From IMG/VR virus record IMGVR_UViG_3300010885_020441, positions 1-44,054 of that record: a stretch of DNA of 44,054 bases; one strand, 5' to 3'. This DNA comes from a virus. The notes beneath the pieces were generated by a model, which did not search any database, had not been told where the DNA came from, and was given only the letters and a program-made list of their open reading frames with translations. Below, one piece after another: positions 20 to 39,879 of the stretch (position 1 is the stretch's first letter; every line of letters starts with the position of its first letter). The translations under genes were made by a program, and so were the position numbers.

Positions 20-295
20 TTGATGGAAGTTTTTGTTGCGGAAGACATTTTGGCTGTCGCATGGGATGAATCGGATGAATGCTTCGAGGCTATTGAATGG
101 GCACATGACAAAGGCTTAGATATATGGGACATTTCAAATGGCTTAAATATTGTGGATACACAGACAGAAGCGTTAGAAGAGCACCTAGACGAAGTGCTTG
201 CAGACTTCACTGAATCCCTATCAGCATTGATTTACAAGATGGTGATGGACCAAATCAACGGCGATGGTAAGCACAAATACCGTCGCTCTGAGTGA
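20..295 (+). CDS. hypothetical acidic protein, possibly 5'-truncated
   Basis: Unrecognised acidic protein of about 90 residues, rich in Asp, Glu and Trp, with a basic tail (KHKYRRSE). The frame is open to the left edge, so the listed TTG (20) or ATG (23) may be internal and the gene may begin outside the window. A purine-rich AGGAGGAG at 1-8 could be a ribosome binding site, but the best-spaced ATG (14) is followed at once by a stop in its own frame. Its stop overlaps the next gene's GTG by 4 bp, showing translational coupling into the replication operon. Codons 4-8 contain a copy of the recurring TTTTTGTTGCGG motif. Confidence 0.6.
   Translation: MMEVFVAEDILAVAWDESDECFEAIEWAHDKGLDIWDISNGLNIVDTQTEALEEHLDEVLADFTESLSALIYKMVMDQINGDGKHKYRRSE
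30..41 (-). repeat. copy of the CCGCAACAAAAA motif
   Basis: TTTTTGTTGCGG on the plus strand inside the first gene, the only copy in the plus-strand operon and in the same orientation as the seven copies at 30-40 kb. Confidence 0.45.
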
Positions 296-1257
296 GCCTT
301 TCATCTCGGTTGCTCGACGCGAATTTAAGCCATTTCCAGTTCCGTCTCTTCGTTACACTGTGGTCCTTAGCAACCTCTGACGGGGTAGTAGAGCAACCAA
401 TGGATACTCTCGGCTGCTCGACGCAGGCTAAATCTAGAAACACTGTCAGAGAGGCTCTACGGGCTTTAGAGGACAAAGGGCTACTTGAAACACATCGCAA
501 AAAGCGTGGGCGAGGGTTCTATTCTGGAAACACATACCAGTTGTTATGCCCTCTGTGGGAGGCATCAGTATGCCCTGCAGAGAGGGCATCTACAGATAGA
601 GCAGATAGTAACTATGACTATCTAGTTAATAGACTATTAGTACCTAATAGTCATATTAGTCAAACTAGTTATGAAAATATAAAAATACACAAAGTAAGTG
701 AGGAATCAATGAATAAAAGTTGGCGTGAAGAACAAGCCAAGGATGATTCCCTTGGTGGTGTCGGAAAGATGGAGCCAGAGACATCGAGAACACCGCCGAG
801 CAAGAAAGACACTAAGACACGAGGACTGCGACCAGAGGCAGAGTGGACAAGTCGCGATGTAGCAGCAGAGTTTTCCTACCTCGTTGGCAAGAAGTTTCCC
901 TGGCTTCCAGGAACTGTCAACGTCGGTAACCTCGCGGGAGCACTCGCCAAGCAACGTAATCAGTATCAGACGACAGCCCTGGTCGAACTAGAGTTGTTAA
1001 AGATGTTTATGGCTGACCAAAAGAACTTTATAGGCATCGGCAACGAGGCTCCTTATCTCTATAAGAAGTTTCTACAGATGTTTAAAACCCACCTGGTCAA
1101 GGCGCATAACAATCTTGGGATAATCCTGCCAAATGTTCAGGGCGTGTCAGAAGAGATTACTACCGATGTCATCTATGCTTCGGACGGAAGAACATTCGAC
1201 AACACGATTGCAGGTCGGTCTGCGCTAGAAAGGTATGAGAAAAAGTTAAATGCCTAA
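292..1257 (+). CDS. winged-helix replication initiator-like protein
   Basis: 321 residues from a GTG coupled to the upstream stop. Residues 10-85 look like a winged-helix domain: a helical stretch, then KSRNTVREALRALEDKGLLE (turn and recognition helix) and a basic wing (HRKKRGRGF). A polar linker follows at about 95-185, and a C-terminal helical domain contains FSYLVGKKFPWLPGTVNVGNL. Many phage replication initiators have this N-terminal wHTH and C-terminal loader-contact layout. Its place as first gene of a cluster that continues into a DnaC-like loader, DnaB and primase supports that role. The linker-coding DNA (613-670) is unusually AT-rich and palindromic, as in origins embedded within initiator genes. 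Alternative: a transcription regulator. Confidence 0.6.
   Translation: MSLSSRLLDANLSHFQFRLFVTLWSLATSDGVVEQPMDTLGCSTQAKSRNTVREALRALEDKGLLETHRKKRGRGFYSGNTYQLLCPLWEASVCPAERASTDRADSNYDYLVNRLLVPNSHISQTSYENIKIHKVSEESMNKSWREEQAKDDSLGGVGKMEPETSRTPPSKKDTKTRGLRPEAEWTSRDVAAEFSYLVGKKFPWLPGTVNVGNLAGALAKQRNQYQTTALVELELLKMFMADQKNFIGIGNEAPYLYKKFLQMFKTHLVKAHNNLGIILPNVQGVSEEITTDVIYASDGRTFDNTIAGRSALERYEKKLNA
613..670. repeat. nested inverted repeats inside the initiator-like gene; candidate origin
   Basis: A perfect 9-bp inverted repeat, GACTATTAG (632-640) and CTAATAGTC (644-652) with a 3-nt spacer, is flanked by the 8-bp pair TATGACTA (613-620) / TAGTCATA (648-655) and by CTAGTT (622-627) / AACTAG (663-668). 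The tract is much more AT-rich than the surrounding coding sequence. Lambda-type phages carry their origin inside the initiator gene; the same is inferred here, not shown. Confidence 0.4.
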
Positions 1258-1420
1258 ATACGATTTTAAATGCGATACCTGCGAAGGCAGTCTTGTGGAG
1301 ATGCACTTAACCTTTAACTCTACTGAGCGACCTAATTGTGACCGTTGTGGCAATGCGATGAGCAAAGTATTTACACCACCTGCAGTTCAATTTAAAGGAG
1401 GAGGTTGGGGAGGACAATGA
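1250..1420 (+). CDS. small FmdB-like zinc-ribbon protein
   Basis: 56 residues starting MPKYDFKCDTC. Two CxxC pairs (C8/C11 and C30/C33) form a zinc ribbon, and the tail is Gly-rich (KGGGWGGQ). This matches the short FmdB-type zinc-ribbon proteins common in actinobacteria and their phages, whose biochemical role is unsettled. The ATG overlaps the end of the initiator-like gene by 8 bp, and the TGA overlaps the next ATG, so it is embedded in the operon. The 3' end encodes the AAGGAGGAGG purine run that serves as ribosome binding site for the following gene. Confidence 0.75.
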   Translation: MPKYDFKCDTCEGSLVEMHLTFNSTERPNCDRCGNAMSKVFTPPAVQFKGGGWGGQ

Positions 1421-3114: not shown

Positions 3115-3129
3115 GAGGAGAATGAATTC

Positions 3130-5342: not shown

Positions 5343-6922
5343 TGTTTACAGGCACTTTAAAACCGTATCAAGTTGAAGCCGTTGAACGTATGGCAAAGCA
5401 AAAGAAAATGCTGGTTGCCTATGAGATGGGTTTAGGAAAAACTTGCATGACGATTGCAGCACTTGAAGAGTTGCGGAAAAGAAAAGAAATTACCCAACCC
5501 ACATTAGTTATTGTGTTAGCAAGTTTAAAGTATCAATGGGAAGCAGAGATAACAAAGTTTTCAAACGCCACAGTTACCGTCGTAGACGGGTCAAAAGCAG
5601 TACGAACTAGGCAATACGTAGATGGCACATACACGGACTACATAGTGACTAACTACGAGTCTATTGTTAATGACTGGGAGTTACTAAAGGGTTTGCTATT
5701 TGACGCTATTGTGTGTGATGAGGCTACTGCTATAAAAGGTTTCCGTTCTAAAAGAAGTAAGAAAGTCAAAGAACTCGCAACAAAAATTCCCGTTAAGTAT
5801 GCGTTAACTGGAACCCCTATTGAAAATGGCAAGCCTGAAGAGTTGTACAGCATTATGCAGTTTGTTGAGCCAACTATGTTAGGTCGCTTTGACTTATTTG
5901 ATAAGACGTTCATTGTAAGAAATCATTTTGGCGGGGTACAGAGATACCGCAATCTTCCGTTACTACACGAGAAGATTAAAGAAGCGTCAGTTAGGAAGGC
6001 TCAGTCAGACCCTGATGTTGCCCCCTACCTACCCGCCACTATTCATTTAAGCCCCATAAAGGTTCGTCTAAACAAACCTGCTCGAACTCTGTATGACAAA
6101 ATTAAGTTAGATTTAACAACTGACTTAGAAGAAGCCCAATCTCTTTTTGGAGGGGGTTTTTCTTTGGATGCAATCTACGGACAAGGACAAGCCTTTGGCG
6201 GACCCGTAGACGCAATGCGTGGGGCTATCATGTCTAAAATTACTGCGTTACGTATGGTGTGCGACAGTCCTTCGCTACTTGTTGATAGTGCTACAAAGTA
6301 CAAACTAAACCAAGGCTTAGGAGGCAGTTCGTATGCCTCTTATCTTGACGATGAGGGTTATCTAGAAAACTTAGACTTAGGTGCTTCTAAGTTAGATGCT
6401 GTAGTGAGTTACGTAGTTGACCATCTAGACACAGACGAACTTTCAAAGGTCGTAATCTTTACAAGTTACATTGGCATGTTGTCTTTGCTCCAAAACGCTT
6501 TGGCAGAAAAGAAGATAAAAAGCCGTATCTACTCAGGACAACTAAATGCTAAAGAAAAAGAAGATTCAAAATTAGATTTCCAAAACTCAAAAGAAGTTAG
6601 GGTTTTAATCTCTAGTGATGCTGGAGGTTACGGCGTTGACTTGCCTCAAGCCAATTTACTGGTAAATTATGATTTACCTTGGTCAGCAGGCAAGGCGGTT
6701 CAACGTAACTCTCGAATACGTCGTGCGTCAAGCAAATGGCCCTCTGTTATTATTCAAGACTTCATAGTGTTAAACTCGATTGAAGAACGGCAGTTTGAAA
6801 TGCTAAATCAAAAAAATTTAGTAGCCGATGCTGTTGTTGATGGGACAGGTATAAATACTAAAGGAGGCGTTGACTTAACAGTCGGCAGCCTTTTGAACTT
6901 TTTGTTAAACGCATCTATCTAA
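5342..6922 (+). CDS. SNF2-family DNA helicase/translocase
   Basis: 526 residues. Motif I is YEMGLGKT (27-34), a DEAT box replaces DEAH (126-129), motif III is ALTGTPIENG, motif V DAGGYGVDL and motif VI QRNSRIRR. The two RecA-like lobes with the SNF2-type GTPIEN are clear. Such proteins are common in phage replication clusters, where they probably remodel forks or strip proteins; the exact role here is unknown. Starts on a TAATG junction with the primase. Confidence 0.88.
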   Translation: MFTGTLKPYQVEAVERMAKQKKMLVAYEMGLGKTCMTIAALEELRKRKEITQPTLVIVLASLKYQWEAEITKFSNATVTVVDGSKAVRTRQYVDGTYTDYIVTNYESIVNDWELLKGLLFDAIVCDEATAIKGFRSKRSKKVKELATKIPVKYALTGTPIENGKPEELYSIMQFVEPTMLGRFDLFDKTFIVRNHFGGVQRYRNLPLLHEKIKEASVRKAQSDPDVAPYLPATIHLSPIKVRLNKPARTLYDKIKLDLTTDLEEAQSLFGGGFSLDAIYGQGQAFGGPVDAMRGAIMSKITALRMVCDSPSLLVDSATKYKLNQGLGGSSYASYLDDEGYLENLDLGASKLDAVVSYVVDHLDTDELSKVVIFTSYIGMLSLLQNALAEKKIKSRIYSGQLNAKEKEDSKLDFQNSKEVRVLISSDAGGYGVDLPQANLLVNYDLPWSAGKAVQRNSRIRRASSKWPSVIIQDFIVLNSIEERQFEMLNQKNLVADAVVDGTGINTKGGVDLTVGSLLNFLLNASI

Positions 6923-6931
6923 GGAGACCCC

Positions 6932-7375: not shown

Positions 7376-7377
7376 TT

Positions 7378-8555: not shown

Positions 8556-8567
8556 CTTACTGAATAC

Positions 8568-29214: not shown

Positions 29215-30510
29215 TCACCTTTCTCCCAACAGATACTCGTCCGCAAGTTCCCCTGCTTTCGACTGCTGGTGACGGATACGGTGTAAATACCGCTCCGTAG
29301 TTGTGATTGACTGATGACCCAAACGTTCCTTAACCTCATGCACGTCAACACCCTTCTTTAACAGTTGAGTGGCGTTTGCATGTCTTAAGTCGTGCGTTTT
29401 TGGATACCAACCAATACCTGACTTTTCTATGGCTTCGTTCCAAATGGTTCTCCACTTGGTTCGACTGAGGTGACCTGAGCCGATACTTTGGCTAAGGCTG
29501 TCTCTGCCTTTTGATTTGTCCTTCCTGTATTGTTTGCGATAATCCTTTATCGCTTGTTTGCACAGGTCACATCTGCACTTTCCCACGTTGTAAGCGTAAG
29601 GAGTTGCATGATTGAAAACCCTACCTTTGACAGTAAAGGTCTCGTTAGTTCTTATGGAAGAACTACCTGCATGAATTAGTTTACCAACTTCGATGGTGTT
29701 ATTGCCAAACAAGAGGTCATTATTAGATAACTTTTTATCTGCTATAAAGGCTTTTAACGTCTTTAAGAGCGTTGTGCTAATAACTACTGTTCTTTTATGA
29801 TTGTTTTTAGTTGTATGCACTACTAAAAAACGCGACCCATTATTTGCATCTTTACCAATGTCGCATACAGTTCTACGAATGTAAACTTCTTTAGACTTAA
29901 AGTTAAAGTCTTTCACCCGTAACTCTGTTGCTTCTCCAAAGCGACAACCTGTTGCAATTAAGAACTGAGCAAACAACTTTGCTCCGTCTGTAGGCAACTT
30001 GGCAACTATTTGCTTGAAGTCGTCAGGCTCTAACGTAATGAATGGGTCAGTCTGAGGCACTTTCACTCTTACCCCATGCGTAGGGTTTGCAACCATTCGC
30101 TCATCTTGCACAAGCGGACGGAAGGCAGAACCCAAGGCAATCTTTACATGGAGGACGGTGGAAAGGCTTACTCCTTCTTGAATAAGTTTTTCAAAAAGGC
30201 TACGCACATCTCGCTTGGTTATAGACAAGACCTGTCTATCCCCTAAAGAAGGAATGACATACTTCTTTAACGAAGTCTTGTAGGTTTTCTTAGTTATCAA
30301 GCGAACATCTGTTCTAATTAACCATTCCTCTAAGTATGCTTCTAAGGTTTGGTTTGATTCTGACTCGTTAACTGACAGCCCACCTTCCGCAAGAATTGCA
30401 GAGGACAAGGCTTTGGCTTTTGAGTCAAACGTGCCTGCGGACACTACGCGATTATTTTTGTTGCGGAAGTAACCTGTGTGCCGTTTGTTTCGGGTAATTA
30501 CGTAAGCCAT
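29215..30510 (-). CDS. int: tyrosine integrase with Cys-motif insertion
   Basis: 431 residues. An N-terminal arm-binding-type domain (1-50), core-binding domain (55-150), and catalytic domain with R190 (GCRFGEATEL), K235, HDLRH (H373, R376), H399 (GHQS) and nucleophile Y408 (TTTERYLH). This is a complete set for site-specific integration. Between lysine and box II it has an unusual segment, HATPYAYNVGKCRCDLCKQA (301-320; C312, C314, C317), plus a basic helix. attP is not recognisable. Contains a copy of the TTTTTGTTGCGG motif near its 5' end. Confidence 0.92.
   Translation of the reverse strand: MAYVITRNKRHTGYFRNKNNRVVSAGTFDSKAKALSSAILAEGGLSVNESESNQTLEAYLEEWLIRTDVRLITKKTYKTSLKKYVIPSLGDRQVLSITKRDVRSLFEKLIQEGVSLSTVLHVKIALGSAFRPLVQDERMVANPTHGVRVKVPQTDPFITLEPDDFKQIVAKLPTDGAKLFAQFLIATGCRFGEATELRVKDFNFKSKEVYIRRTVCDIGKDANNGSRFLVVHTTKNNHKRTVVISTTLLKTLKAFIADKKLSNNDLLFGNNTIEVGKLIHAGSSSIRTNETFTVKGRVFNHATPYAYNVGKCRCDLCKQAIKDYRKQYRKDKSKGRDSLSQSIGSGHLSRTKWRTIWNEAIEKSGIGWYPKTHDLRHANATQLLKKGVDVHEVKERLGHQSITTTERYLHRIRHQQSKAGELADEYLLGER
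30455..30466 (-). repeat. copy of the CCGCAACAAAAA motif
   Basis: Plus strand TTTTTGTTGCGG within the first codons of integrase (encoding FRNKN). Same orientation as the other copies. Confidence 0.5.
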
Positions 30511-30539
30511 ACACTTGCTCCTCTCTCGTTTAGGAAGTG

Positions 30540-30740: not shown

Positions 30741-30764
30741 TTTTTGCTCCTTTCGTAAGCATGG

Positions 30765-31001: not shown

Positions 31002-31187
31002 TTACTGATTCCTTGCTTTAAAGGTTTCAATGTAATCTTCCTTGCTTTGAAGGATTCGAATAGTTTTTATAAGTTCTTTATTAACTCTAAGCAAGTGACG
31101 ATGAGCGTTAACAGAAACAACCATAACTATGCATGAACATACAAGCGCAATCATAATTGCCAGCAAATCAGTTGTTTGTAGATACAT
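31002..31187 (-). CDS. small single-span membrane protein
   Basis: 61 residues. A hydrophobic helix LLAIMIALVCSCIVMVVSV (about 8-26) is followed by a basic and helical cytosolic tail. AAGGAG provides the ribosome binding site. Overlaps the preceding gene by 20 bp. Possible superinfection or membrane function; none can be read. Confidence 0.65.
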   Translation of the reverse strand: MYLQTTDLLAIMIALVCSCIVMVVSVNAHRHLLRVNKELIKTIRILQSKEDYIETFKARNQ

Positions 31188-31551
31188 TTGGCACTCCTTC
31201 TTTAACCATAGTTTCCAACTCTTTAATTAAGAGTTGCTTCTTTTTAACGTTGTCTTTCAGTTGGTCTAGATACTGCGTCATTTCAGGTGGATACACAGTT
31301 ATCTCTCTACGAGAGTTCACTCGCAATACTTTCCAATCCCCCATGTCATAACCCGCACAGAGTTTGTTTGCTTCTTCAGGGTCAAGCCAAAAGAAGATTT
31401 CATCGTCAAGTGGGTGCTCATCTTCTCTACCTTCCCACTCCGCCTGCTTTATTGCAAACATAACCTTGTCTTCGTTTAAGGTCATTTGCTTTGTTACTGG
31501 GTCTGCTTTCCAACGAATAGTTGCTTTGATTATAGATAGTGTTGTTGTCAT
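31168..31551 (-). CDS. hypothetical protein
   Basis: 127 residues: beta-rich N-terminal 85 residues (LSIIKATIRWKADPVTKQMTL, DEIFFWLDPEEANKLC, WKVLRVNSRREITVYP) and a C-terminal coiled-coil helix (YLDQLKDNVKKKQLLIKELETM). AAAGGAC upstream; ATGA overlap with the preceding gene. Not recognised. Confidence 0.65.
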   Translation of the reverse strand: MTTTLSIIKATIRWKADPVTKQMTLNEDKVMFAIKQAEWEGREDEHPLDDEIFFWLDPEEANKLCAGYDMGDWKVLRVNSRREITVYPPEMTQYLDQLKDNVKKKQLLIKELETMVKEGVPNVSTNN

Positions 31552-31883
31552 AGCGTTGTCCTTTCTTCTTTAAGGGTTGGTTGATGGTGTGCTAACCACC
31601 AAGTTTTTGCGTATTCCAAAGTAGTGTCATTGAATTGGTAACACCACTTTTGTTTGTGTGTGTGATGAGCATTTAAATCTTGATTACCTGAATAGATAAT
31701 TACCTTGCCACCATACTGATTAATGTCCATGAGTATGCTTTCCGCAGGTATTTCCCAGTCAAGTAGTTTGCCTACCCACTCTCTTACCCTGTCTTGTCTA
31801 CAAGTTAAGCAAGAGCACTTAGGTTCTGTTTGGTGAGTTGCAACTTTAACTGTCATAAGTTCTTTTGCTGAACCTAGTTTCAT
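31548..31883 (-). CDS. hypothetical Cys-containing protein
   Basis: 111 residues with CSCLTC (about 23-28), then GKVIIYSGNQDLNAHHTHKQKWCYQF. A metal-binding hook is possible from the Cys and His groups. ATGA overlaps at both ends. Not recognised. Confidence 0.65.
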   Translation of the reverse strand: MKLGSAKELMTVKVATHQTEPKCSCLTCRQDRVREWVGKLLDWEIPAESILMDINQYGGKVIIYSGNQDLNAHHTHKQKWCYQFNDTTLEYAKTWWLAHHQPTLKEERTTL

Positions 31884-32113
31884 ACGATGACCCCCATGAT
31901 AGGAATTGGCGGTAAAGAAGGTTGAACTTCTTCTAGGTCTGTTAAAGAATAACTAGCAGACTTAACTTTTGTGGAATAGTTAGGGAGTTGTTCCAGTTCT
32001 TGTTCTCCCATTTCAACTTGTCTCACCCAGTTCTCTGCTTCTTCTTTAGAGTTAGCGTCAAACGTTATGATTCCATGATTTTCTTCAGCGTATCGAACTA
32101 CGTATCTTGTCAT
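31880..32113 (-). CDS. hypothetical small protein
   Basis: 77 residues: MTRYVVRYAEENHGIITFDANSKEEAENWVRQVE, a beta-beta-helix pattern common in small phage-encoded proteins, then a Pro-rich hydrophobic tail (LPPIPIMGVIV). TAGGAGG is 5 nt before the ATG. Not recognised. Confidence 0.65.
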   Translation of the reverse strand: MTRYVVRYAEENHGIITFDANSKEEAENWVRQVEMGEQELEQLPNYSTKVKSASYSLTDLEEVQPSLPPIPIMGVIV

Positions 32114-32121
32114 GTTGCCTC

Positions 32122-32448
32122 CTATGCTTTCTTGTAGGTATAACTTACGGTGTATGTTTGAGTGTCTCTGTCATAGACACGAATTGAAGGGCACTTCTTG
32201 CCTCTAACTTTGTTAATGCACTTAAATACCGCAGGAGTATCTGTGCATTCCCAATGGTGTTCGTGACACTTCTTGCAATTAGTTTCATCGCAGTCACGAT
32301 AAGTAATTTCAAGGCAGGCTTCACAATAAGTTGCAAAGCATTCCCCACCTTTATGAAAGTTCCAGTAAGAACAATCTCTCCATGATTCTTCAGCGTTACA
32401 ACACTTGCTAAGAGTCGGAACTCCTGTGCTTAACTCTCCTGTTTTCAT
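32122..32448 (-). CDS. Cys-rich multi-zinc protein
   Basis: 108 residues with about 13 cysteines: KCCNAEESWRDCSYW, GECFATYCEACLE, CDETNCKKCHEHHWEC, FKCINKVRGKKC. Pattern suggests two or three zinc sites of the RING/treble-clef style. Its ATG overlaps the stop of the next Cys-rich microprotein. Function unknown; may bind host protein or nucleic acid. Confidence 0.65.
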   Translation of the reverse strand: MKTGELSTGVPTLSKCCNAEESWRDCSYWNFHKGGECFATYCEACLEITYRDCDETNCKKCHEHHWECTDTPAVFKCINKVRGKKCPSIRVYDRDTQTYTVSYTYKKA

Positions 32449-32576
32449 GAAGCCACCTCACACTCATCATTACAATCGTGCTTGTGGTATTCAGGGTGTG
32501 CACTATCGCAATAGGCACACAGACAGCCGTATTGTGCTTCAGCACCGCAACTGCATAATCCGCATTTACAACTCAT
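32445..32576 (-). CDS. 43-residue Cys/His-rich microprotein
   Basis: MSCKCGLCSCGAEAQYGCLC then AYCDSAHPEYHKHDCNDECEVAS: nine cysteines and three histidines in 43 residues, probably a compact metal-binding protein. Coupled by ATGA overlaps to genes on both sides, which argues that it is truly translated despite its size. Confidence 0.6.
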   Translation of the reverse strand: MSCKCGLCSCGAEAQYGCLCAYCDSAHPEYHKHDCNDECEVAS

Positions 32577-32899
32577 GAAGACACCTTGATACAGAATGTT
32601 TCATCGTCTTTCCATGGAAGTGGTGTGATGAAGTAACCGATACGGTTTACGTAAGCACGTCCATTAACTATGTAAGTGCCTCCGTTGTCTCCGTCAACAA
32701 GAGTCCACACGTTGTGATAATCACAAGCGTAAACAAAGGCTTGCTCTTCTCCGTATGTCTCATAGAGAATCCCTACGCCATTTTCATCTTGCCATGAAGC
32801 GTTTTCATCAAGTGTGTTCCCTATCGGCTTGTATGTGTCTTGCCATTTGTCGAGTGTGATACGGCGTTGCTTAGTTGCTGTTGCTAGTTGTGTTGTCAT
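32573..32899 (-). CDS. hypothetical beta-rich protein
   Basis: 108 residues from ATG 32899, chosen for its AAAGGAGG 7 nt upstream; the longer frame to 32977 lies within the preceding gene. Contains ENGVGILYETYGEEQAFVYACDYHNVWTLVDGDNGGTYIVNG, an antiparallel-beta pattern. The recurring CGCAACAAAAAA motif lies directly before its ribosome binding site. Not recognised. Confidence 0.65.
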   Translation of the reverse strand: MTTQLATATKQRRITLDKWQDTYKPIGNTLDENASWQDENGVGILYETYGEEQAFVYACDYHNVWTLVDGDNGGTYIVNGRAYVNRIGYFITPLPWKDDETFCIKVSS

Positions 32900-33515
32900 G
32901 TGTTGCCTCCTTTTTTTGTTGCGAGTATTTGATACGAGTTGTTGCACGTGATTGTCCAGCAGTCTTTCTGTATCCATAACGAATCAAACGTAGATTAATT
33001 GCGCCAACAGTTAACCCAAGTTCTTTTGCGAGTGTGTATGTGCTTACTCCTAAGAGAGTCTGCTCATGAATTAAGCGAGTGAACTCTTCTGCTTCTGTTC
33101 TGTTCTTAGAACCCTTGCCTCTAAGAAGAGTGGCAGTTGCATGAAGTTCTTTTAGAACTTTTAGTGCTTCAGGGTCAATAGGAGTTTTCCTATAAACAAC
33201 CTTCTTTATACGAGCACGCTTTGGAACTGGGTGACTAGCAACTGAGAGCATGAGTTGGAACGGTTCTCGGTCGAGTTTATCTACGATTAACCTAATCATC
33301 TCTCGTGTTACACCAACAGCCTGCCCGATACTTTCAAGAGACCAGCCTTCTTCTTTTCTAAGTCTCCATACGTATTGGTTTCTTTCTTCTTTTGTTTTAA
33401 AAGACTTAAAGATTAAATACACTTCAGGAGTTAGCAACTGATTTTTTACAGGTCTACCTTCTGTAACTTCTTTAATCTTCTTTACGTAATTGGGATTTAT
33501 GCTTGGGTATTTCAT
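32871..33515 (-). CDS. double helix-turn-helix DNA-binding protein
   Basis: 214 residues with two HTH units: EEGWSLESIGQAVGVTREMIRLIVDKL (about 54-80) and LGVSTYTLAKELGLTVGAINLRLIRYGYRKT (about 155-185), joined by a basic linker (RARIKKVVYRKTP). The first resembles sigma-factor region 4 or FixJ-type HTH. Likely a transcription regulator of the minus-strand operon or of the lysis-lysogeny switch (inference). Its 3' end overlaps the next gene by 29 bp. Confidence 0.7.
   Translation of the reverse strand: MKYPSINPNYVKKIKEVTEGRPVKNQLLTPEVYLIFKSFKTKEERNQYVWRLRKEEGWSLESIGQAVGVTREMIRLIVDKLDREPFQLMLSVASHPVPKRARIKKVVYRKTPIDPEALKVLKELHATATLLRGKGSKNRTEAEEFTRLIHEQTLLGVSTYTLAKELGLTVGAINLRLIRYGYRKTAGQSRATTRIKYSQQKKEATHDNTTSNSN
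32912..32923 (-). repeat. copy of the CGCAACAAAAAA motif
   Basis: Minus strand CGCAACAAAAAAAGGAGG: here the motif is fused to the ribosome binding site of the 32899 start. Confidence 0.55.
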
Positions 33516-34108
33516 AGTGCCACCAACCCTTCTAATTGTTGTGGAGTTAAAGAAGTTATCATTCCGTTTGAATCAGTAACAGCGTTAGTAATTACTACGT
33601 TACCTAACAGAACTGTTTCATCATCTTTGCCAAACTCGTTAAGCCATAATTTTGTGGCGGTGAAGTTTGGAACTAACCCTAGGTTCTTGAAACGTGCTTC
33701 TTCGTTAAACCATAGTGTTATGTCTTGAGAAGGTAGGGTCTTGCACTCAACGTATCCTTTGCATGTTGACTGTAGGAACTCTAACTGGTCTTGTGCTTTA
33801 ACTTCTTGGACTGCTTTCGTTCCGTCTTCGTAAAAGATTACTGCCTTAACTTCTTTATAATTTACGTAGACATTGGAACTACCGCAAACCAAACACACAA
33901 CTTCTTTATCGTTGCGTTCTGTATCTTCATTGAAGATGAAAGTCTCTCCGTATGGGTCGAATGGAGTTACTGATTCACACGCTATGCACCATGTCCATTC
34001 GATGTTGTCGAACTTGCCGACGTAATCGAATACTCCATACTGCCCATGACGTGCATACACTTCATTACACAAGTCGTAGATGTTTCTCGGTGCAGGTTTA
34101 GTTGCCAC
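33512..34108 (-). CDS. DUF3846-like protein with zinc ribbon
   Basis: 198 residues from GTG 34108, chosen because AGGAGGAG is 6 nt upstream; the longer frame to 34186 overlaps the preceding gene. CIAC (about 41-44) and CLVC (about 71-74) form a zinc ribbon. The C-terminal part, DITLWFNEEARFKNLGLVPNFTATKL ... LLGNVVITNA, resembles the small DUF3846 family of phage and plasmid genes (weak call). ATGA-type overlap with the HTH gene. Confidence 0.55.
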   Translation of the reverse strand: MATKPAPRNIYDLCNEVYARHGQYGVFDYVGKFDNIEWTWCIACESVTPFDPYGETFIFNEDTERNDKEVVCLVCGSSNVYVNYKEVKAVIFYEDGTKAVQEVKAQDQLEFLQSTCKGYVECKTLPSQDITLWFNEEARFKNLGLVPNFTATKLWLNEFGKDDETVLLGNVVITNAVTDSNGMITSLTPQQLEGLVAL

Positions 34109-34460
34109 GATACTCCTCCTGTGTTTGAGCAAACTTGAATGGAGTGTAAGAAGGGTCGCTATTAATAATTCTTCCCAACTCTTCAAGTTCTGAGTCAGTA
34201 AAATTATCTATTGCTTCCCAGTCTTCTTTTGCCCATGAATCAGTATCAACAACACACAAGCCACTTGCCCAACCGTAGTTAGAATCTTTAGCGATGTATG
34301 TTGCTTTATCAAAGTCAACAACACGAATGTAAACTTCGCCGTCAACCTTAACAACTCCGTCAGCAATTAAAGATAGTCCTGCACCTGTAATTGCATTAGC
34401 GAGAGTGCTTAGTTCGATGTCTTCTTTTGAAGAGATAATTACTGCGATTTGTTTACCCAT
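34098..34460 (-). CDS. hypothetical protein
   Basis: 120 residues: QIAVIISSKEDIELSTLANAITGAGLSLIADGVVKVDGEVYIRVVDF, an alpha/beta pattern, then an acidic helical tail. GGAGG upstream of the ATG. Not recognised. Confidence 0.65.
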   Translation of the reverse strand: MGKQIAVIISSKEDIELSTLANAITGAGLSLIADGVVKVDGEVYIRVVDFDKATYIAKDSNYGWASGLCVVDTDSWAKEDWEAIDNFTDSELEELGRIINSDPSYTPFKFAQTQEEYRGN

Positions 34461-34463
34461 AAG

Positions 34464-34733
34464 TTATGCCTCCACTTCTATAAGTTCGATACCGCGTTTT
34501 TTTAGTCGTGCAGTAATTTCGTCAAGAATTACTCCATAGATACCCATGATGTCATCACCTGTTGGTGCGTTATCAACAGACTCTTTCCAAACGTCCAAAG
34601 GAAGAGTTATTCCGTATTCTTCTTTTAGATTTTCGGCAAACTCTGAGTAATCAATGATTGTTGTCCAAACCACTTCATCTTCAGATTTAAAGTTTTGTTC
34701 TAAGTCTTCTTTAAGTTCTTTTATTGTTGTCAT
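34464..34733 (-). CDS. hypothetical acidic protein, paralogue of 36442-36675
   Basis: 89 residues starting MTTIKELKEDLEQNFKSEDEV. The first 50 residues align with the product of 36442-36675 (MITTVKDLKVNLDENFKDTDSI; then F/Y-S-x-E-E/F-F pattern and W-K/Q-x-x). The two genes are probably a duplication. Function unknown. Confidence 0.65.
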   Translation of the reverse strand: MTTIKELKEDLEQNFKSEDEVVWTTIIDYSEFAENLKEEYGITLPLDVWKESVDNAPTGDDIMGIYGVILDEITARLKKRGIELIEVEA

Positions 34734-34738
34734 TAGGG

Positions 34739-34939
34739 TTAAACCACCTTTCCTAGTCGTTGTTCTTCTTTAGTAATTAAAAAGAGAGCAAGACGAATGC
34801 CGTCTGCTTTGCCGTCTGTGTAGTGAAAGTTAGAATCTGCTCCGTCTTCAAGAGCATGGGTTATCTCCACACTCTTTAACTCGGAACGTAACTTCTTTCT
34901 GATGTTCTCAAGCGGTAGTTGAATCTCTTTAATTGCCAT
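34739..34939 (-). CDS. hypothetical small helical protein
   Basis: 66 residues from ATG 34939, which has AGAGGTGG 5 nt upstream; a longer frame to 35098 overlaps the previous gene. IQLPLENIRKKLRSELKSVEITHALEDGADSNFHYTDGKADGIRLAL. Not recognised. Confidence 0.6.
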   Translation of the reverse strand: MAIKEIQLPLENIRKKLRSELKSVEITHALEDGADSNFHYTDGKADGIRLALFLITKEEQRLGKVV

Positions 34940-35150
34940 GTGCCACCTCTTTCTTTTGGTCTGCTTGTTCGAATACAAGGGCATACACAAGTGCATACAC
35001 CTTCTGCATAGCCTCTGAGTAACCACGTTGGTATTCACTCTCGACTTTGTTTTGTGAGTTGATGATTTCAAGCAAGACTTCTCCATGAATAACTTCATGA
35101 ATTGGTGTGCCTAGTGCGAGCAGGTTTTTTTGTTGCGGAGTTGCATTCAT
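34929..35150 (-). CDS. hypothetical helical protein
   Basis: 73 residues from ATG 35150 (MNATPQQKNLLALG) with GAGAGGTAA upstream; a longer frame to 35222 overlaps the preceding gene. Mostly helix (LEIINSQNKVESEYQRGYSEAMQKVYAL). The recurring motif falls on codons 4-8 of this gene. Not recognised. Confidence 0.6.
   Translation of the reverse strand: MNATPQQKNLLALGTPIHEVIHGEVLLEIINSQNKVESEYQRGYSEAMQKVYALVYALVFEQADQKKEVAHGN
35126..35138 (-). repeat. copy of the CCGCAACAAAAAA motif
   Basis: Lies 12 nt inside the gene starting at 35150, encoding PQQK. Confidence 0.55.
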
Positions 35151-35175
35151 ACTGTTACCTCTTCTCTCTTCTTGT

Positions 35176-35880
35176 TCATGATTGATACTTTCCAGCACAC
35201 ACAGCACCCATGCCTCTTGCAACAGATACTGCTCTTGTTAGTGCACGACCACAATGCACACAGCAACCAAACTGAACGCTCAGTTCGATTGCTTTAGATA
35301 AAGTCAAACGATGTTCGGGCTTTAATTCAAAGAGCACCGATTGCTTTGTTGTGTCGTAATCGAATCCGTCATGATTACGATTGATTGTCCATACTTGGAG
35401 TTTGCGACTATTCAAACCCATACGGATTTGATAGATAGAGTTGTTAAGAAGGTATGCACCAACTTCTTTTATCTCAGGCTCTAAAGACGGTGCGTCTTTG
35501 AGTTGTGTAATTAATCCACTTACTGAATCAATAGACAACTGCTCCAACACAGTTACACCTTCTTTTAAAAGTGTTGCAGAAAGTAAGGCTTTGCCTTCTT
35601 GCTTGTCCTGCACCAGTTTTCCTAGCAACCAAAGTTGCTTTGATGTTGCAAGGCGAACAACGCCTGCTTTGTTTGGGCACTTAAGAAGATTAGCAATTAA
35701 CTCAGTTGCTCCTTGCACGTTAAGTAATGCAAAGTCAGGAGTGTCATAAGAATGTTGCTTTGTATCAAGTAACTTCTTTATGAAGTTGGCTTGCTTCTCA
35801 CTTGCATAGCGAACCTTGTATTCGCCGTATTGATTACCACCACGTGCACCAGCCTTACGATGTTTTGTTTTTGTAGCCAT
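35176..35880 (-). CDS. DUF6011-like zinc-ribbon protein with repeat domains
   Basis: 234 residues. Basic start (MATKTKHRKAGARGG); two related segments, YASEKQANFIKKLLDTK (about 25-41) and LATSKQLWLLGKLVQDK (about 77-93), look like a repeated small helical motif; the C-terminus FGCCVHCGRALTRAVSVARGMGAVC is a zinc ribbon of the DUF6011 type (C..CGRxLT...S...G.G..C). Common in actinophages, role unknown. Preceded by GGGAGGCA and the recurring A-rich motif. Confidence 0.65.
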   Translation of the reverse strand: MATKTKHRKAGARGGNQYGEYKVRYASEKQANFIKKLLDTKQHSYDTPDFALLNVQGATELIANLLKCPNKAGVVRLATSKQLWLLGKLVQDKQEGKALLSATLLKEGVTVLEQLSIDSVSGLITQLKDAPSLEPEIKEVGAYLLNNSIYQIRMGLNSRKLQVWTINRNHDGFDYDTTKQSVLFELKPEHRLTLSKAIELSVQFGCCVHCGRALTRAVSVARGMGAVCAGKYQS

Positions 35881-35897
35881 AGTTTTGCCTCCCTAGT

Positions 35898-35910
35898 TTT
35901 TTTGTTGCGG
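35898..35910 (-). repeat. copy of the CCGCAACAAAAAA motif
   Basis: Located 18-30 nt upstream of ATG 35880 and followed by CTAGGGAGGCA (ribosome binding site). Confidence 0.6.
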
Positions 35911-35916
35911 ATTGGG

Positions 35917-36072
35917 TTATGGGTAAAGCAAGTCCTTGCAGAATGAACTCATCTGTTCAACAGGAACTTTGCATTCAGCAGGCGTAGTTGCATTGAACGC
36001 CCAAGCAATAAAGCATAAGAAGATTGCTACTACTACCAACCTTCTTATGCGGTATTTAGTTTGCATTCGCAT
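35917..36072 (-). CDS. small membrane/secreted peptide
   Basis: 51 residues from ATG 36072, with AAAGGAGGAA 5 nt upstream; longer frame to 36180 rejected. RRLVVVAIFLCFIAWAFNATT is a signal-anchor; two cysteines (C34, C45) follow in a short exterior tail (ECKVPVEQMSSFCKDLLYP) and may form a disulfide. Function unknown; resembles small surface-exposed phage membrane proteins. Confidence 0.6.
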   Translation of the reverse strand: MRMQTKYRIRRLVVVAIFLCFIAWAFNATTPAECKVPVEQMSSFCKDLLYP

Positions 36073-36223
36073 GTGCTTCCTCCTTTGATTGAATTGATAC
36101 AGGCGTTGCCATGTTTTTGAATCTAATTGCAACTTCTTTTGCTTGTGGATTTTTTGTTGCGAGCAGAGATTGAAGAACAATAGTTAGTTGTTCATCATTG
36201 ACTGAAAGAATGTGTAGTGTCAC
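36056..36223 (-). CDS. hypothetical 55-residue protein
   Basis: MTLHILSVNDEQLTIVLQSL then LATKNPQAKEVAIRFKNMATPVSIQSKEEAHANAN from a GTG with GGAGG 8 nt upstream. GTGA overlap with the preceding gene and overlap with the following gene indicate coupling. Codons 22-25 consist of a copy of the recurring motif. Not recognised. Confidence 0.55.
   Translation of the reverse strand: MTLHILSVNDEQLTIVLQSLLATKNPQAKEVAIRFKNMATPVSIQSKEEAHANAN
36150..36161 (-). repeat. copy of the CGCAACAAAAAA motif
   Basis: Part of a 17-nt exact match (36145-36161) to 37784-37800, although here the sequence is inside a small gene and there it is intergenic. Confidence 0.55.
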
Positions 36224-36435
36224 CAGTTTGCCTCCACTTCTTCTATCTTCTCTTCAAGTTGAGTTTGGATAAACAAAGGAACAAGAGTCTCATGAATAAA
36301 CGCTTCTCCTTTAAACCATTCTGTGTGACTTCCATACTCTGCACCAAACCATGTGCGTGCAGAGTAATCACCGAACGTCCATTCGTATTTAACTTCTGTT
36401 ACTTCTGCTACTGATACTTCTTTTGTATTAGCCAT
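36220..36435 (-). CDS. hypothetical aromatic-rich protein
   Basis: 71 residues: MANTKEVSVAEVTEVKYEWTFGDYSARTWFGAEYGSHTEWF and an acidic helical end. Trp/Tyr-rich with beta potential. GAAGGAGTAA precedes the ATG. Not recognised. Confidence 0.6.
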   Translation of the reverse strand: MANTKEVSVAEVTEVKYEWTFGDYSARTWFGAEYGSHTEWFKGEAFIHETLVPLFIQTQLEEKIEEVEANW

Positions 36436-36441
36436 AGATTG

Positions 36442-36675
36442 TTACTCCTTCTCATCTAGTTGGGTTGATAGTTCATGTGCGATTTGGTCTTGGATAATTG
36501 AATCTGCTTCATCATCATCAACGAATGCAAGTGCTTGTTGCCATGCCTTGTCGGTAACTTCTGAATCAAACTTATCTTCAAACTCTTCTTTAGAGAAGAA
36601 GAGAACGTAGATTGAATCCGTATCTTTAAAGTTTTCGTCGAGATTTACTTTCAGGTCTTTAACTGTAGTTATCAT
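36442..36675 (-). CDS. hypothetical acidic protein, paralogue of 34464-34733
   Basis: 77 residues starting MITTVKDLKVNLDENFKDTD. Shares N-terminal pattern and size with the product of 34464-34733; C-terminal part is acidic (FVDDDEADSIIQDQIAHELSTQLDEKE). Function unknown. Confidence 0.65.
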   Translation of the reverse strand: MITTVKDLKVNLDENFKDTDSIYVLFFSKEEFEDKFDSEVTDKAWQQALAFVDDDEADSIIQDQIAHELSTQLDEKE

Positions 36676-36900
36676 TTATTCCTCCTCAGTCGCTGTTACT
36701 TCTAGTAATTGAATGGCTGTGCCTACTGCAGACCACACGATTGCGTTGCGTAGATAAAGTTCCAAGTAACGTGTGAAGTCTTCTGTGTTGATTATCTTCT
36801 TTAAGGTTTGCACCTGTCTCTCATTCCAATTAATACGAATTGAAAGAGAGACAGGCGCAGTTAAAGAAGTTTTAGATTTACTCTTTCCAGAGTTTTTCAT
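36676..36900 (-). CDS. hypothetical small protein
   Basis: 74 residues from ATG 36900 (MKNSGKSKSKTSL); an ATG at 36912 (MKKSTMKNS) is also possible. Basic start, then PVSLSIRINWNERQVQTLKKIINTEDFTRYLELYLRNA, reminiscent of a ribbon-helix-helix DNA-binding protein (strand then two helices). Overlaps the preceding gene by about 23 bp. Confidence 0.6.
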   Translation of the reverse strand: MKNSGKSKSKTSLTAPVSLSIRINWNERQVQTLKKIINTEDFTRYLELYLRNAIVWSAVGTAIQLLEVTATEEE

Positions 36901-37159
36901 CGTGCTCTTCTTCATCAACGAGATGTTGAATAGACTCAACAACAGAAGTTTTAGTTGTGCTGTAACGACTTACACCATTTAAGTCGTTGTAAAACTTCTC
37001 ATTGAGTGCATACCAACCCCACTCTGTGCTTCCAAACTTATAAACAACCCAACGCAAGTCTTCTGATACGTAAACAGAAGAAGATTGCTGTGCATTGTTT
37101 GGCAGAGTTACGGTTGGATACTTACTTGCTTCATACTTCTTTAGAACGATTGTAGCCAT
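36878..37159 (-). CDS. hypothetical protein
   Basis: 93 residues, beta-rich and aromatic (SSVYVSEDLRWVVYKFGSTEWGWYALNEKFYNDL) with acidic C-terminus. AAGAGGTGG upstream of the ATG, which directly follows the stop of the preceding gene. Not recognised. Confidence 0.65.
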   Translation of the reverse strand: MATIVLKKYEASKYPTVTLPNNAQQSSSVYVSEDLRWVVYKFGSTEWGWYALNEKFYNDLNGVSRYSTTKTSVVESIQHLVDEEEHDEKLWKE

Positions 37160-37756
37160 TTATGCCACCTCTTCTTTCTTGTCGTAGACGAGTTCGATTA
37201 AACGTTCCATGTCACGCAAAGTAATACTTACTCTTGCATGACTAGAGTCTGAGTAGTAAGGCACTTCGATGTTTACGTCGTCGAATAACTTTCCACCCAG
37301 TAGTGACTTGATTGTGTTTGGCATAGTTAACTTTGCACGTTCTGCATGTTCTTGTATCTGTTTTTTCTTTGCACGAACGATTGCTTCTTGTGCTTCTTGT
37401 TCTGCACGTAGTCGCTTCTCTTCTGCTTCACGTGCATTCCACACACCTTGAACGATGTCAAAGCGTGCAACGATACTTGCAACTCGTGTGACGTAATAAA
37501 ACGTCTCACCATTGTCGTCTGTAATTGTAAAGAGCAAACCAACTCCCTTTACTTCTTTCTTTGGTGCAGGAGAGAAGTCTGCTTCTTCTTTTGAAGGGCG
37601 AGTATCTTTCCAGTAATACTTATCCTTGGAGACAAGTTTTGCTTTGTAGATGTTGTGCTTCTGCACGTTGTTAAGGTCAACAGCATTACGCTTTGTGTAT
37701 GTGAATGAGTTAAGAATTGCATACTCAACACCTACTTCGAGTTCTGAAAGTTTCAT
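37160..37756 (-). CDS. hypothetical protein with coiled coil
   Basis: 198 residues. N-terminal beta domain (KLSELEVGVEYAILNSFTYTKRNAVDL ... LVSKDKYYWKD), then a charged coiled coil (REAEEKRLRAEQEAQEAIVRAKKKQIQEHAERAKL, about 108-145) and a final alpha/beta part. Its leader carries the recurring CCGCAACAAAAAA motif. First gene after the hairpin pair at 37813-37873, so it may begin a sub-operon. Confidence 0.65.
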   Translation of the reverse strand: MKLSELEVGVEYAILNSFTYTKRNAVDLNNVQKHNIYKAKLVSKDKYYWKDTRPSKEEADFSPAPKKEVKGVGLLFTITDDNGETFYYVTRVASIVARFDIVQGVWNAREAEEKRLRAEQEAQEAIVRAKKKQIQEHAERAKLTMPNTIKSLLGGKLFDDVNIEVPYYSDSSHARVSITLRDMERLIELVYDKKEEVA

Positions 37757-37788
37757 AAGAAGTTACCTACTTTCTTTTGGTTGGTGGA

Positions 37789-37801
37789 TTTTTTGTTGCG
37801 G
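37789..37801 (-). repeat. copy of the CCGCAACAAAAAA motif
   Basis: Intergenic, 33-45 nt upstream of ATG 37756. Followed by TCCAC, as at 36145-36161. Confidence 0.6.
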
Positions 37802-37812
37802 TGAAAGATTGT

Positions 37813-37842
37813 GCAGGGCAGAGAGGGAAGTCTCTGCCCTGC
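37813..37842 (-). terminator. 12-bp GC-rich hairpin
   Basis: GCAGGGCAGAGA (37813-37824) pairs perfectly with TCTCTGCCCTGC (37831-37842) across 6 nt. No T-run follows in either direction. It lies after the CobT-like gene and may be a U-less terminator or a processing or stability element. Confidence 0.55.
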
Positions 37843-37843
37843 T

Positions 37844-37873
37844 AGTTAGTTGGAGAGGCAACTACAACTAACT
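37844..37873 (-). other. second hairpin next to the CobT-like stop
   Basis: AGTTAGTTG (37844-37852) and CAACTAACT (37865-37873) pair perfectly around a 12-nt loop, starting 3 bp after the CobT-like stop codon. Tandem with the stronger hairpin; together they probably separate expression of the MoxR/CobT-like pair from downstream genes. Confidence 0.5.
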
Positions 37874-37875
37874 CC

Positions 37876-39849
37876 TCATTGAGATACCAAGCGACGTGCG
37901 ATTGCAGTTCGCACTAGTGATTGACCAAGAGACAAGATGTCTTTGGCTTCACCAATTCGTTTGATAATCTCAAAGTTATGTCTGCACCGTTCTAATCCTT
38001 CATTCGAAACTTCATTAGGATAGAGAAGTGCTTGGCAAGTGAGAACACCTGCTTCTTTCATTCTTCTTACAGACTCTTCCGCTTTATCTCCGCCCCATGC
38101 ACCGTCAGTAATCATGAAGAGAATGCGGATTGGCTTGTCTGTAGTAGCAAGAATGTTTTGTGCATTTAAGATTGCAACTTCAGGTTGTGTTGTTCCACTT
38201 GCACCTGAATCTCTTACTGTTGTATCTGCTTTTTCATCTGCAGAATAAAGTAAGTGAGTATGTGAATCAAACGTGTAAACAGTTGTGCGTGCCTGCACTT
38301 TGTCTAAAGAACGTTTGATAGCCCACAAACTTTTGTATGCTTCTTTTGCATTGTGACCTTGCATTGAAGAAGAACGGTCAAGAAGAATAACTGCTTCGAT
38401 TGCAGTTACGTCGTCACGACCACTCTGCCACTTGTTAAACAAAGTGCGAACACTTGCACCTTGCATGTAACGATTGGCATTTAACTTTCCACTTCGTTGC
38501 TCAGTTAACCATGAAGGGTCGTAGTTTGCTTTGAGTCTTTCTAACTCACGAGCAAACGAACGTTGCACCATTACTAAGTCTGCAGTTGCAGATACAGAAC
38601 GGTAATCAGCACGTGATACCGACTCTGCATTAACAGTTCCCATAAGAGGTTTACCAACAACCTGCATTGATAACTTATTTAAGTTATCCATAAGGTCTTC
38701 AGTAACTGATTGAATAATCTCTTCCATGGTATCTGTAACTTCTTGTGAGTTTGCAGTTTTACTTTTACCACCAGCACCAGCATGACGGCTTAAGTTATCT
38801 GCTTCATAAGAATCATCAGACTCTGAATCATCATCAGAATCTTCAGCAACAGTTACGTCACCAAAGTCAGAAGAAGAATCGGAATCTTCTTTTGAATCTG
38901 AATCTGAATCTGAATCATCATCATCTGAATCACCAGCACCATTACCGTTTGAATCTGAATCATCATCTGAATCATCTGCAGAATTATCTGCAGAAGAATT
39001 AGATTGTGAATCTTCTTCATCAGAATCTGAATTATCAGAATCAGAATCAGCAGAAGAAGATTGTGTATCTTCTTTATCTAATTCTTTTTCCTGCTTCTCA
39101 GCATTCTTACGGTCACGCTCTTGTTCACGTTTTGGTGCAGGTCGTGAATCAGAAGACTCATGACCATGGAATGGTCTCTCTTCATGACCGTTTGGGTCTG
39201 CAAGATTATCGCCCTGTAATAATTCTGCGAATCGTGCAATTAATTCTTTTGCACGTTCTGTATCGTCAGGGAATAACAGCAAACGGTATTCATCAATTAC
39301 TTCACCAAGTGCAACTATGTTTTCTTGTTTTGCATAGTGCTTGCGTGCAAGTTGACGAATCTCAAGAGGCAAGTATCTGCGACCGCGTAACAACGGATAC
39401 GCATTCTCGATTGCTTCAGGAGTATTAAGAATGAATTGTGCAACAGTTGCAGTCAACCAATTAACAGTTGAAGGGAATCTGCCAACCATAAGTGTTTCAA
39501 TACGTTGGTCTTCTAACGCATTGAATGCTTTCCAGTAATTGTTTTCAATTACCCATAAGCAGATGTCAGAACCGTTACGTGGTGTGTAACGAACGTGTGC
39601 TAACTCGTGAAAGTCCAAGCCTTGGATTGATAACAAAGTTTCTGTATCAAACTTGTCACTAATCTTTGCTTCGTTAAAGAACACGTCGTTAGCACCCGAC
39701 CAAGCAGGAGCACCGTCAGGTTGATTAACGATGTGCACTTTAATTGGACGAAGTGCAATAACAGAATTAGCACGTTGAAACACTTGTGCTAATCGAAGTA
39801 ATCTATCGCGCTTTTCGTTTTGTTGTTCTTGTGCTGTTAGTTGTTGCAT
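37876..39849 (-). CDS. CobT-like metallopeptidase-VWA protein
   Basis: 657 residues. The N-terminal domain has HELAH (H81, E82, H85; HExxH zinc site) and ALEDQRIE (111-118), the pattern of VWA-linked metallopeptidase proteins. Residues about 260-350 are an almost pure Ser/Asp/Glu tract. The C-terminal von Willebrand A domain has the MIDAS motif: DRSSS (D491, S493, S495), T553/554 and D582 (ITDGAW). It is paired with the MoxR-like ATPase encoded just upstream. MoxR-VWA pairs act as metal-dependent chaperones or chelatase subunits, as in cobaltochelatase CobS-CobT. Target unknown here. GAGAGGCA ribosome binding site and the recurring motif precede it. Confidence 0.8.
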   Translation of the reverse strand: MQQLTAQEQQNEKRDRLLRLAQVFQRANSVIALRPIKVHIVNQPDGAPAWSGANDVFFNEAKISDKFDTETLLSIQGLDFHELAHVRYTPRNGSDICLWVIENNYWKAFNALEDQRIETLMVGRFPSTVNWLTATVAQFILNTPEAIENAYPLLRGRRYLPLEIRQLARKHYAKQENIVALGEVIDEYRLLLFPDDTERAKELIARFAELLQGDNLADPNGHEERPFHGHESSDSRPAPKREQERDRKNAEKQEKELDKEDTQSSSADSDSDNSDSDEEDSQSNSSADNSADDSDDDSDSNGNGAGDSDDDDSDSDSDSKEDSDSSSDFGDVTVAEDSDDDSESDDSYEADNLSRHAGAGGKSKTANSQEVTDTMEEIIQSVTEDLMDNLNKLSMQVVGKPLMGTVNAESVSRADYRSVSATADLVMVQRSFARELERLKANYDPSWLTEQRSGKLNANRYMQGASVRTLFNKWQSGRDDVTAIEAVILLDRSSSMQGHNAKEAYKSLWAIKRSLDKVQARTTVYTFDSHTHLLYSADEKADTTVRDSGASGTTQPEVAILNAQNILATTDKPIRILFMITDGAWGGDKAEESVRRMKEAGVLTCQALLYPNEVSNEGLERCRHNFEIIKRIGEAKDILSLGQSLVRTAIARRLVSQ

Positions 39850-39866
39850 GACTGCCTCTCTGTAGA

Positions 39867-39879
39867 TTTTTTGTTGCGG
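39867..39879 (-). repeat. copy of the CCGCAACAAAAAA motif
   Basis: Located 18-30 nt upstream of ATG 39849, followed by CTACAGAGAGGCA; that 13-mer also precedes ATG 41313. Confidence 0.6.

Follow-up and report, generated by a model that had tools for sequence, protein, structure and literature searches.

A one-orientation 12-mer repeated along a phage operon, probably a stoperator-like site, with a double helix-turn-helix protein as its candidate reader

The virus contig analyzed here (IMG/VR record IMGVR_UViG_3300010885_020441; 44,054 bases, called the window below, which may be a fragment) carries a minus-strand operon that runs from 41.3 to 28.6 kb and along which a short directional word, the 12-mer TTTTTGTTGCGG, recurs. 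The plus arm of the window holds genes for replication proteins. In the operon, small genes lie between the following named ones:

39913-41313, minus strand: AAA ATPase gene
37876-39849, minus strand: VWA-domain protein gene
37160-37756, minus strand: gene labelled MKL here, with a product of 198 amino acids
35176-35880, minus strand: DUF6011 protein gene
32871-33515, minus strand: gene for a double helix-turn-helix (HTH) protein of 214 amino acids, the proposed reader of the sites
29215-30510, minus strand: tyrosine integrase gene (PHROG integrase, E 2.9e-59; Pfam Phage_integrase, E 6.9e-28)
28639-29208, minus strand: lysozyme-like protein gene

Because a tyrosine integrase is encoded, a temperate life style is suggested, and the virus is probably a temperate bacterial virus.

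Exact copies of the 11-mer TTTTTGTTGCG (CGCAACAAAAA) numbered nine in the window, all but one of them on the minus strand. The full 12-mer was present in six of the eight minus-strand copies, those at 32913 and 36151 having A as the last base. The copies, together with one possible degenerate site, were as follows (contigs and loci of relatives are named by our own handles):

39868..39879, minus strand: CCGCAACAAAAA, leader of the VWA-domain gene; exact match, unchanged in 5 of 5 aligned relatives
37790..37801, minus strand: CCGCAACAAAAA, leader of the MKL gene; exact match, unchanged in 5 of 5 aligned relatives
36151..36162, minus strand: TCGCAACAAAAA, within an open frame, the weakest operon copy; exact 11-mer, conserved in 0 of 6 aligned relatives
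35899..35910, minus strand: CCGCAACAAAAA, leader of the DUF6011 gene; exact match, unchanged in all but one (G007, with its own variant) of 6 aligned relatives
35127..35138, minus strand: CCGCAACAAAAA, codons 5-8 of a small gene (MNATPQQKN...); exact match, unchanged in 6 of 6 aligned relatives
33649..33660, minus strand: possible degenerate site CCGCCACAAAAT in the gene at 33512-34186; 2 mismatches, CCGCAACAAAAT in 3 of 8 aligned relatives
32913..32924, minus strand: TCGCAACAAAAA, 3' end of the double-HTH gene, directly preceding the ribosome binding site of the next gene; exact 11-mer, YCAACACAAAAA in 7 of 8 aligned relatives
30455..30466, minus strand: CCGCAACAAAAA, about codons 15-18 of the tyrosine integrase gene; exact match, unchanged in 8 of 9 aligned relatives
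30..41, minus strand: copy outside the operon, antisense to a plus-strand open frame that runs off the contig start; aligned only in G001 and identical there
5776..5786, plus strand: ninth copy, on the sense strand of a helicase gene, where it codes for ATK

Seven of the copies thus listed fall within the operon (30455-39879), each on the transcribed strand, while those at 30 and 5776 are probably coincidence. A first-pass annotation made from the sequence alone had described eight copies in one orientation: all eight were recovered as exact minus-strand matches, although six of its eight coordinates were one base low and the ninth copy lies on the opposite strand. It placed four copies in leaders just before ribosome binding sites and others within the first codons of a gene; here the copies at 39868, 37790 and 35899 are in leaders, that at 32913 stands just before a ribosome binding site, that at 35127 covers codons 5-8, and that at 36151 is within an open frame. 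Its expectation of well under one copy by chance agreed with shuffled windows, in which the 11-mer averaged 0.05 copies (largest count, 1). Moreover, among all 10-12-mers of the window this was the top one-orientation word, with a score of 38.0 against a best of 19.4 in 60 simulated order-4 Markov windows in which the two arms were modelled apart. Given these shuffles and simulations, the density of the word is far above chance, also once the choice of word is corrected for.

The word was present in all six contigs whose AAA protein is 94-97% identical to that of the window, and the sites at 39868, 37790, 35899, 35127 and 30455 were identical in every close relative aligning there. G007, a more distant contig, could be aligned at two of them (35899 and 30455) and differed at both. 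Such close relatives are by themselves no proof of selection. Among relatives with ~42% identical operon proteins, sites were found at matching places, namely the leaders of the VWA and MKL genes and the interior of the AAA, VWA and integrase genes. In the VWA leader (relatives compared at 41-58% identity of the VWA protein), the exact 12-mer recurred in G012 (L069) and G019 (L077), and variant sites stood in G007, G017, L171 and G008; the homologous MKL leaders of G007, L171, G017 and G008 each had their own variant. The MKL leader had no site in G011, G013, G020, G009, G021, L130, G014, G016 and G018.

About ten types of word were distinguished, one per phage or group of phages, including CCGCAACAAAAA, CCGACCTGCGAA, TCGGGATAGAAA (L171 and L183) and CCG[AC][AG]GGGACAA (G013, G020, G016 and G018, each with its own commonest form and three close forms mixed). 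The others were CCGCAACGAAAA in G011, C[AG][AC]CTACAAAAA in G007, TCAACACGAAAA in G008, CCGAGGTGCAAA in L130, CCGCTGTGCAAA in G014, and CCGAAGGAAAAA at two of the four sites of G009, the remaining two retaining only AAGGAAAAAATC. The operon of G017 was without the window word and carried TCCGACCTGCGAA seven times plus one TCCAACCTGCGAA, all in a single orientation, with sites that include the VWA, MKL and HTH leaders and the interior of the integrase gene; outside this operon, the opposite strand has one TCCAACCTGCGAA at 9418, and a shorter match of 10 bases lies at 93804. In an ungapped alignment, most of the words start with CCG and end with AA or AAA around a variable middle. No clear repeated word was found in the operon loci L117, L122, L123, L125, L129, L136, L138, L140, L141 and L182, most of them short, and these were omitted from the counts; L117, L122 and L123 have one exact integrase site each.

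As a separate observation, the word CTCCGGGTG occurred 9 times in Gordonia phage Hanem (L193) and 11 times in UBSmoodge (L197), with 0 copies on the opposite strand. Its copies surround the AAA-VWA region, one lying at about VWA codon 274 in Hanem (L193/L199), and none was present in DalanDe (L198).

A search of the operon span in 16 contigs, for which every phage was given the pattern of its own sites, counted 87 sites in sense orientation and 0 antisense; the contigs are not independent, and the patterns derive from the same data. The count used 16 of 18 contigs: G010, left out, has 2 exact sense copies and, at 2801 on the opposite strand, a copy with a single mismatch, and G021 (as L124), also left out, has CCGAGGTGCAAA 3 times with 0 antisense. 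Outside the operon span, the window site at 30 was the 1 sense match, and the opposite strand had 9, G019 accounting for 4. By position, 30 of the 87 were leader sites (DUF6011 9, MKL 8, VWA 7, HTH 5, AAA 1), 40 lay within named genes (integrase 16, VWA 8, AAA 7, HTH 5, DUF6011 4) and 17 elsewhere; gene starts in this count are approximate, having been extrapolated from the window proteins, and some sites placed at HTH codons 2-9 proved by position look-up to be leader sites. Many sites of the relatives lie deep in coding sequence (codons 146-156, 223-256 and 263-308). In the integrase gene they stood at codons 223-256, the window excepted (codon 15); G020 has two adjoining sites 15 bp apart there, and G016 and G018 also have pairs, at codons 223 and 228. 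The integrase site of G012, G015 and G019 is CCGCCACAAAAA, in a stretch coding for PATKN, and similar stretches are found in G011 and G007; for the integrase sites of these five, protein constraint alone could be sufficient.

The sites of one phage changed in concert. Across 11 phages, sites at different loci of the same phage were 95.1% identical (44 pairs), a figure biased upward since the sites were located with each phage's own word, while sites at the same locus in phages of different type were 55.2% identical (95 pairs). Of 5000 permutations of phages within loci, none exceeded 74.8% (p 2e-4). The MKL and VWA leaders, which were found by position, show the change of word directly. The simplest cause of such concerted change is a trans-acting reader that differs between phages. 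A scan for one-way words, run on TipsytheTRex as a positive control, returned TTGACAGCCACC (8 copies) and CTTGACATCCACC (6 copies) with 0 antisense; these are one base off the complement of 5'-GGTGGTTGTCAAG, the cluster A consensus as given in an excerpt of PMC5559632. The same scan scored 33.6 for the window operon, 14.6 for the window plus arm and at best 17.9 for the Cantare region. A scan score is no proof by itself, and the argument rests on position and concerted change.

The protein encoded at 32871-33515 is the candidate reader of the sites. Its AlphaFold2 model (pLDDT 82.3, pTM 0.57) has two tri-helical units. The first (HTH1) appears, from sequence and model, to be sigma region 4-like: Sigma70_r4 was matched by 45 of 57 members of the double-HTH family, and the Pfam matches of the window protein included no other sigma region. 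The second (HTH2) weakly resembles ParB-type HTH domains (Z 6.0, VIA). Structure matches were weak overall, with a best PDB match by Foldseek at E 0.17 and VIA matches reaching Z 6.0; in a viral structure library three matches were at or below 0.001, the best being an uncultured phage protein (E 4.6e-14). Of 23 further contigs scanned (a set without the 5.6-kb G003), 18 have the gene, while G005, G007, G010, G022 and G023 gave no match. Relatives of this protein were kept at 80 viral loci from a profile search; 34 of these loci also have the integrase or most of the operon. With tblastn, relatives were found in 7 Microbacterium phage records.

Some distant loci of this family have repeated words of another kind. 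In L148, L153, L191 and L192, words of the GTATNNANTTTTT form were present in 13, 14, 14 and 9 copies on the strand of the HTH gene and in 0, 0, 1 and 0 copies on the opposite strand. In L148, L153 and L192, many of them, by eye, follow terminator-like hairpins and some precede promoter-like sequence; most other distant double-HTH loci were without such words.

Among seven operon proteins, the HTH protein showed the highest correlation between protein distance and site distance (r 0.41, p 0.005; 14 phages), the other six giving r 0.15-0.38 (12-14 phages). The partial correlation for the HTH protein, given another protein, was positive in 6 of 6 cases (0.12-0.44), and the reverse was at most 0.08. 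Over 20 phages, the mean number of site differences was 0.4 at HTH identities of at least 85% (5 pairs), 1.65 at 65-85% (20 pairs), 3.67 at 50-65% (24 pairs) and 5.27 at 40-50% (64 pairs), while below 40% it was 4.77 (77 pairs), under the value of the 40-50% bin. The link of the sites to the double-HTH protein is best called suggestive.

We consider it probable, on sequence comparisons, that the 12-mer belongs to a stoperator-like system, in which it would serve as an asymmetric binding site peculiar to the phage and would likely be read by the double-HTH protein. In such a system a phage repressor would bind single sites spread along the operon, and the bound repressor would halt RNA polymerase arriving from upstream; the operon would stay off in the prophage, and immunity would arise against phages with the same site. 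The two HTH units of the 32871-33515 protein may each contact one end of a site. What was computed here comprises the sites with their orientation, matching positions and concerted change, the conservation of the protein and its two predicted HTH units; from these we infer that a protein would read the DNA, that this would be the double-HTH protein, that elongation would be blocked and that immunity would be given. A stoperator-like reading had been among those offered in the first-pass annotation, and it gained from the orientation of the sites, their recurrence at matching places despite diverging flanks and the phage-specific variants; neither random scatter over both strands nor lack of conservation where flanks diverge was seen in these searches. 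It is an evenly balanced question whether this is a second, independently evolved stoperator immunity system, in which temperate phages outside cluster A would silence an operon through directional sites that block elongation and a monomeric two-headed repressor joining a sigma region 4-like HTH to a ParB-like one, with about ten words arisen by co-evolution and forming a natural series of immunity specificities.

Several results weigh against this interpretation, besides the upward bias of within-phage identity. The lead of the HTH protein is small: r was 0.38 for VWA and DUF6011, and that of the HTH protein fell to 0.29 on the 12 phages with the AAA protein. Nine phage pairs with HTH identity below 40% have an identical word (by elimination, the window, G001 and G004 with G012, G015 and G019); the HTH proteins of the latter three are 37-41% identical to the window protein by tblastn although the 12-mer is identical, and the predicted recognition helices differ between the two groups. 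G007, an 89-kb contig, has six sites and no double-HTH gene, with the neighbours of that gene kept on both sides. The scan was unspecific by score, since coding repeats reached 48.5 in the structural part of G001 and 29.6 in the rest of G017, and the word of the Hanem region, which is without an annotated integrase, scored 33.0 against the 33.6 of the window operon. No promoter-like match overlapped a site in the window in a weak scan, and no operator over a promoter was found. Finally, an HTH-profile search of genome contigs returned no relative and no close integrated copy, and a VWA-profile search of the same kind gave one 28% match, on a contig of a Thiotrichales metagenome-assembled genome, and no close prophage.

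The small lead, the sharing of one word by very different HTH proteins and the sites of G007 would all be expected if stoperator-like sites were read by another phage protein and the double-HTH protein had a different role. We regard this as unlikely, because the tested operon proteins of the window, a set lacking some of the small ones, contained no second DNA-binding protein with conservation in the distant relatives, and because four of the five contigs without the double-HTH gene (G005, G010, G022 and G023) end before its place. As for G007, phage D29 reportedly retains its sites. The loss of the 5' end of the repressor gene in D29, described in a passage of PMC6550527, is a precedent for repressor loss. 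An element acting in RNA, whether bound by an RNA-binding protein of the phage, cut by a sequence-specific RNase or paired with antisense RNA, would account for every counted operon site being on the sense strand and for several sites standing in leaders near ribosome binding sites, some of them after hairpins. Two such hairpins were seen by eye, neither with a T-run and both absent from the list of terminator-like structures:

39906..39926, minus strand: hairpin between the end of the AAA ATPase gene and the VWA leader site
37814..37841, minus strand: hairpin just upstream of the MKL leader site

In most relatives, too, an inverted repeat resembling a hairpin was seen by eye at the MKL-leader junction. 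On the other hand, many sites of the relatives lie deep in coding sequence, and no known RNA family of Rfam was matched at the gathering threshold; opposite-strand copies of the word are few and scattered in the large contigs, in a comparison that was not systematic, which speaks against antisense RNA. An RNA-level element is thus decidedly improbable.

That the sites are promoters of a phage-specific sigma-like factor accords with the likeness of HTH1 to sigma region 4 and with a site orientation that follows transcription, but the site abuts a ribosome binding site at 32913 and in the HTH leader of G011, and must there be part of what is transcribed; if transcription began 7-35 nt downstream of the site, the gene would lose its ribosome binding site. 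Sigma-70-type promoter matches were not in excess (19 found versus 28.5 expected) in a scan limited to that promoter type. We give promoters, which the first-pass annotation had also proposed, very little credence. Its suggestions of a translation element and of start-associated sequences fit poorly too, since so many sites of the relatives lie far inside genes, and recombination boundaries offer no explanation for the concerted change of sites within one phage. The weak resemblance of HTH2 to ParB-type domains could point to structural or partition sites spaced along the operon, the least probable reading of all: parS sites are palindromic, and the sites here match the direction of a single transcribed operon, outside which they are nearly absent. 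With promoters and control of translation starts disfavoured, a block of elongation by a DNA-bound protein would be the most likely action of the stoperator-like sites.

To our knowledge, stoperators are known only from cluster A phages and their relatives, and in the excerpts of the literature using the term no system of this phage group was found. Cluster K phages have start-associated sequences, a short one-orientation repeat just upstream of start codons. The sites here are likewise a short one-orientation repeat with some copies near gene starts; unlike those of cluster K, they often lie far inside genes (codons 146-308 in relatives) and their word varies among relatives. Likeness to Sigma70_r4 is common to proteins with sigma-70 region 4, whereas the protein here has a second HTH unit and the site position is unfit for a promoter. 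The closest known system is that of the cluster A stoperators (L5, TipsytheTRex and Bxb1, with relatives in Gordonia, Rhodococcus and M. abscessus phages). Cluster A sites are described as asymmetric, 12-14 bp long and multiple, 14 to ~30 in number (PMC9283540, PMC6550527, PMC5559632, PMC13313380, PMC9934374); in cluster A, reversed sites abolish repression, and the monomeric repressor of TipsytheTRex uses two DNA-binding domains (excerpt of PMC9283540), and the A15 stoperators combine fixed positions with variable positions linked to specificity (excerpt of PMC5559632). As far as these excerpts go, the sites of both systems are asymmetric, present in several copies and uniformly oriented with respect to transcription; some positions are fixed while others vary, and the consensus differs by phage group. 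The two DNA-binding domains of the cluster A repressor would have a counterpart in the two predicted HTH units of the proposed reader. The sites here are fewer, 3-8 per contig against 14 to ~30. Moreover, cluster A sites occur throughout the genome, chiefly at the ends of genes or in the short stretches between them, whereas those here are nearly confined to one operon and many are intragenic. The window protein shows no homology to the TipsytheTRex/L5 repressor beyond the HTH (BLASTP E 0.25; hhalign 27 HTH columns at a probability of 42%), and the TipsytheTRex repressor or 7R6R fold was not among the 50 matches listed by Foldseek or VIA. The system would work like stoperators, probably through a protein unrelated in sequence to the cluster A repressor, and would be unlike the cluster A family in reader sequence and site placement. 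If so, an unrelated protein with the same logic would mean that directional blocking of elongation evolved twice. The matched set of site words and HTH variants would make recognition and immunity specificity directly testable, and the Gordonia phages Hanem and UBSmoodge with CTCCGGGTG, being cultured, are usable for such tests.

The ~1.1 kb upstream of the AAA ATPase gene (41314-42463) has no listed open frame of at least 60 amino acids and is A/T-rich by eye; the operon promoter may lie within it. In the plus arm, genes for a queuine tRNA-ribosyltransferase-like protein and a ribonucleotide reductase lie at 24311-25825 and 25968-28010. The heptamer AAAGAAG is very common in the window, chiefly on the coding strand (33:11 and 40:7, per arm), and from this per-arm excess it was set aside as a directional signal, probably reflecting coding-sequence composition. 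Another word, CTGTTATCAGA, occurs 4 times on one strand of the window and 0 times on the other, and a longer form of it is found 3 times in the relative L121.

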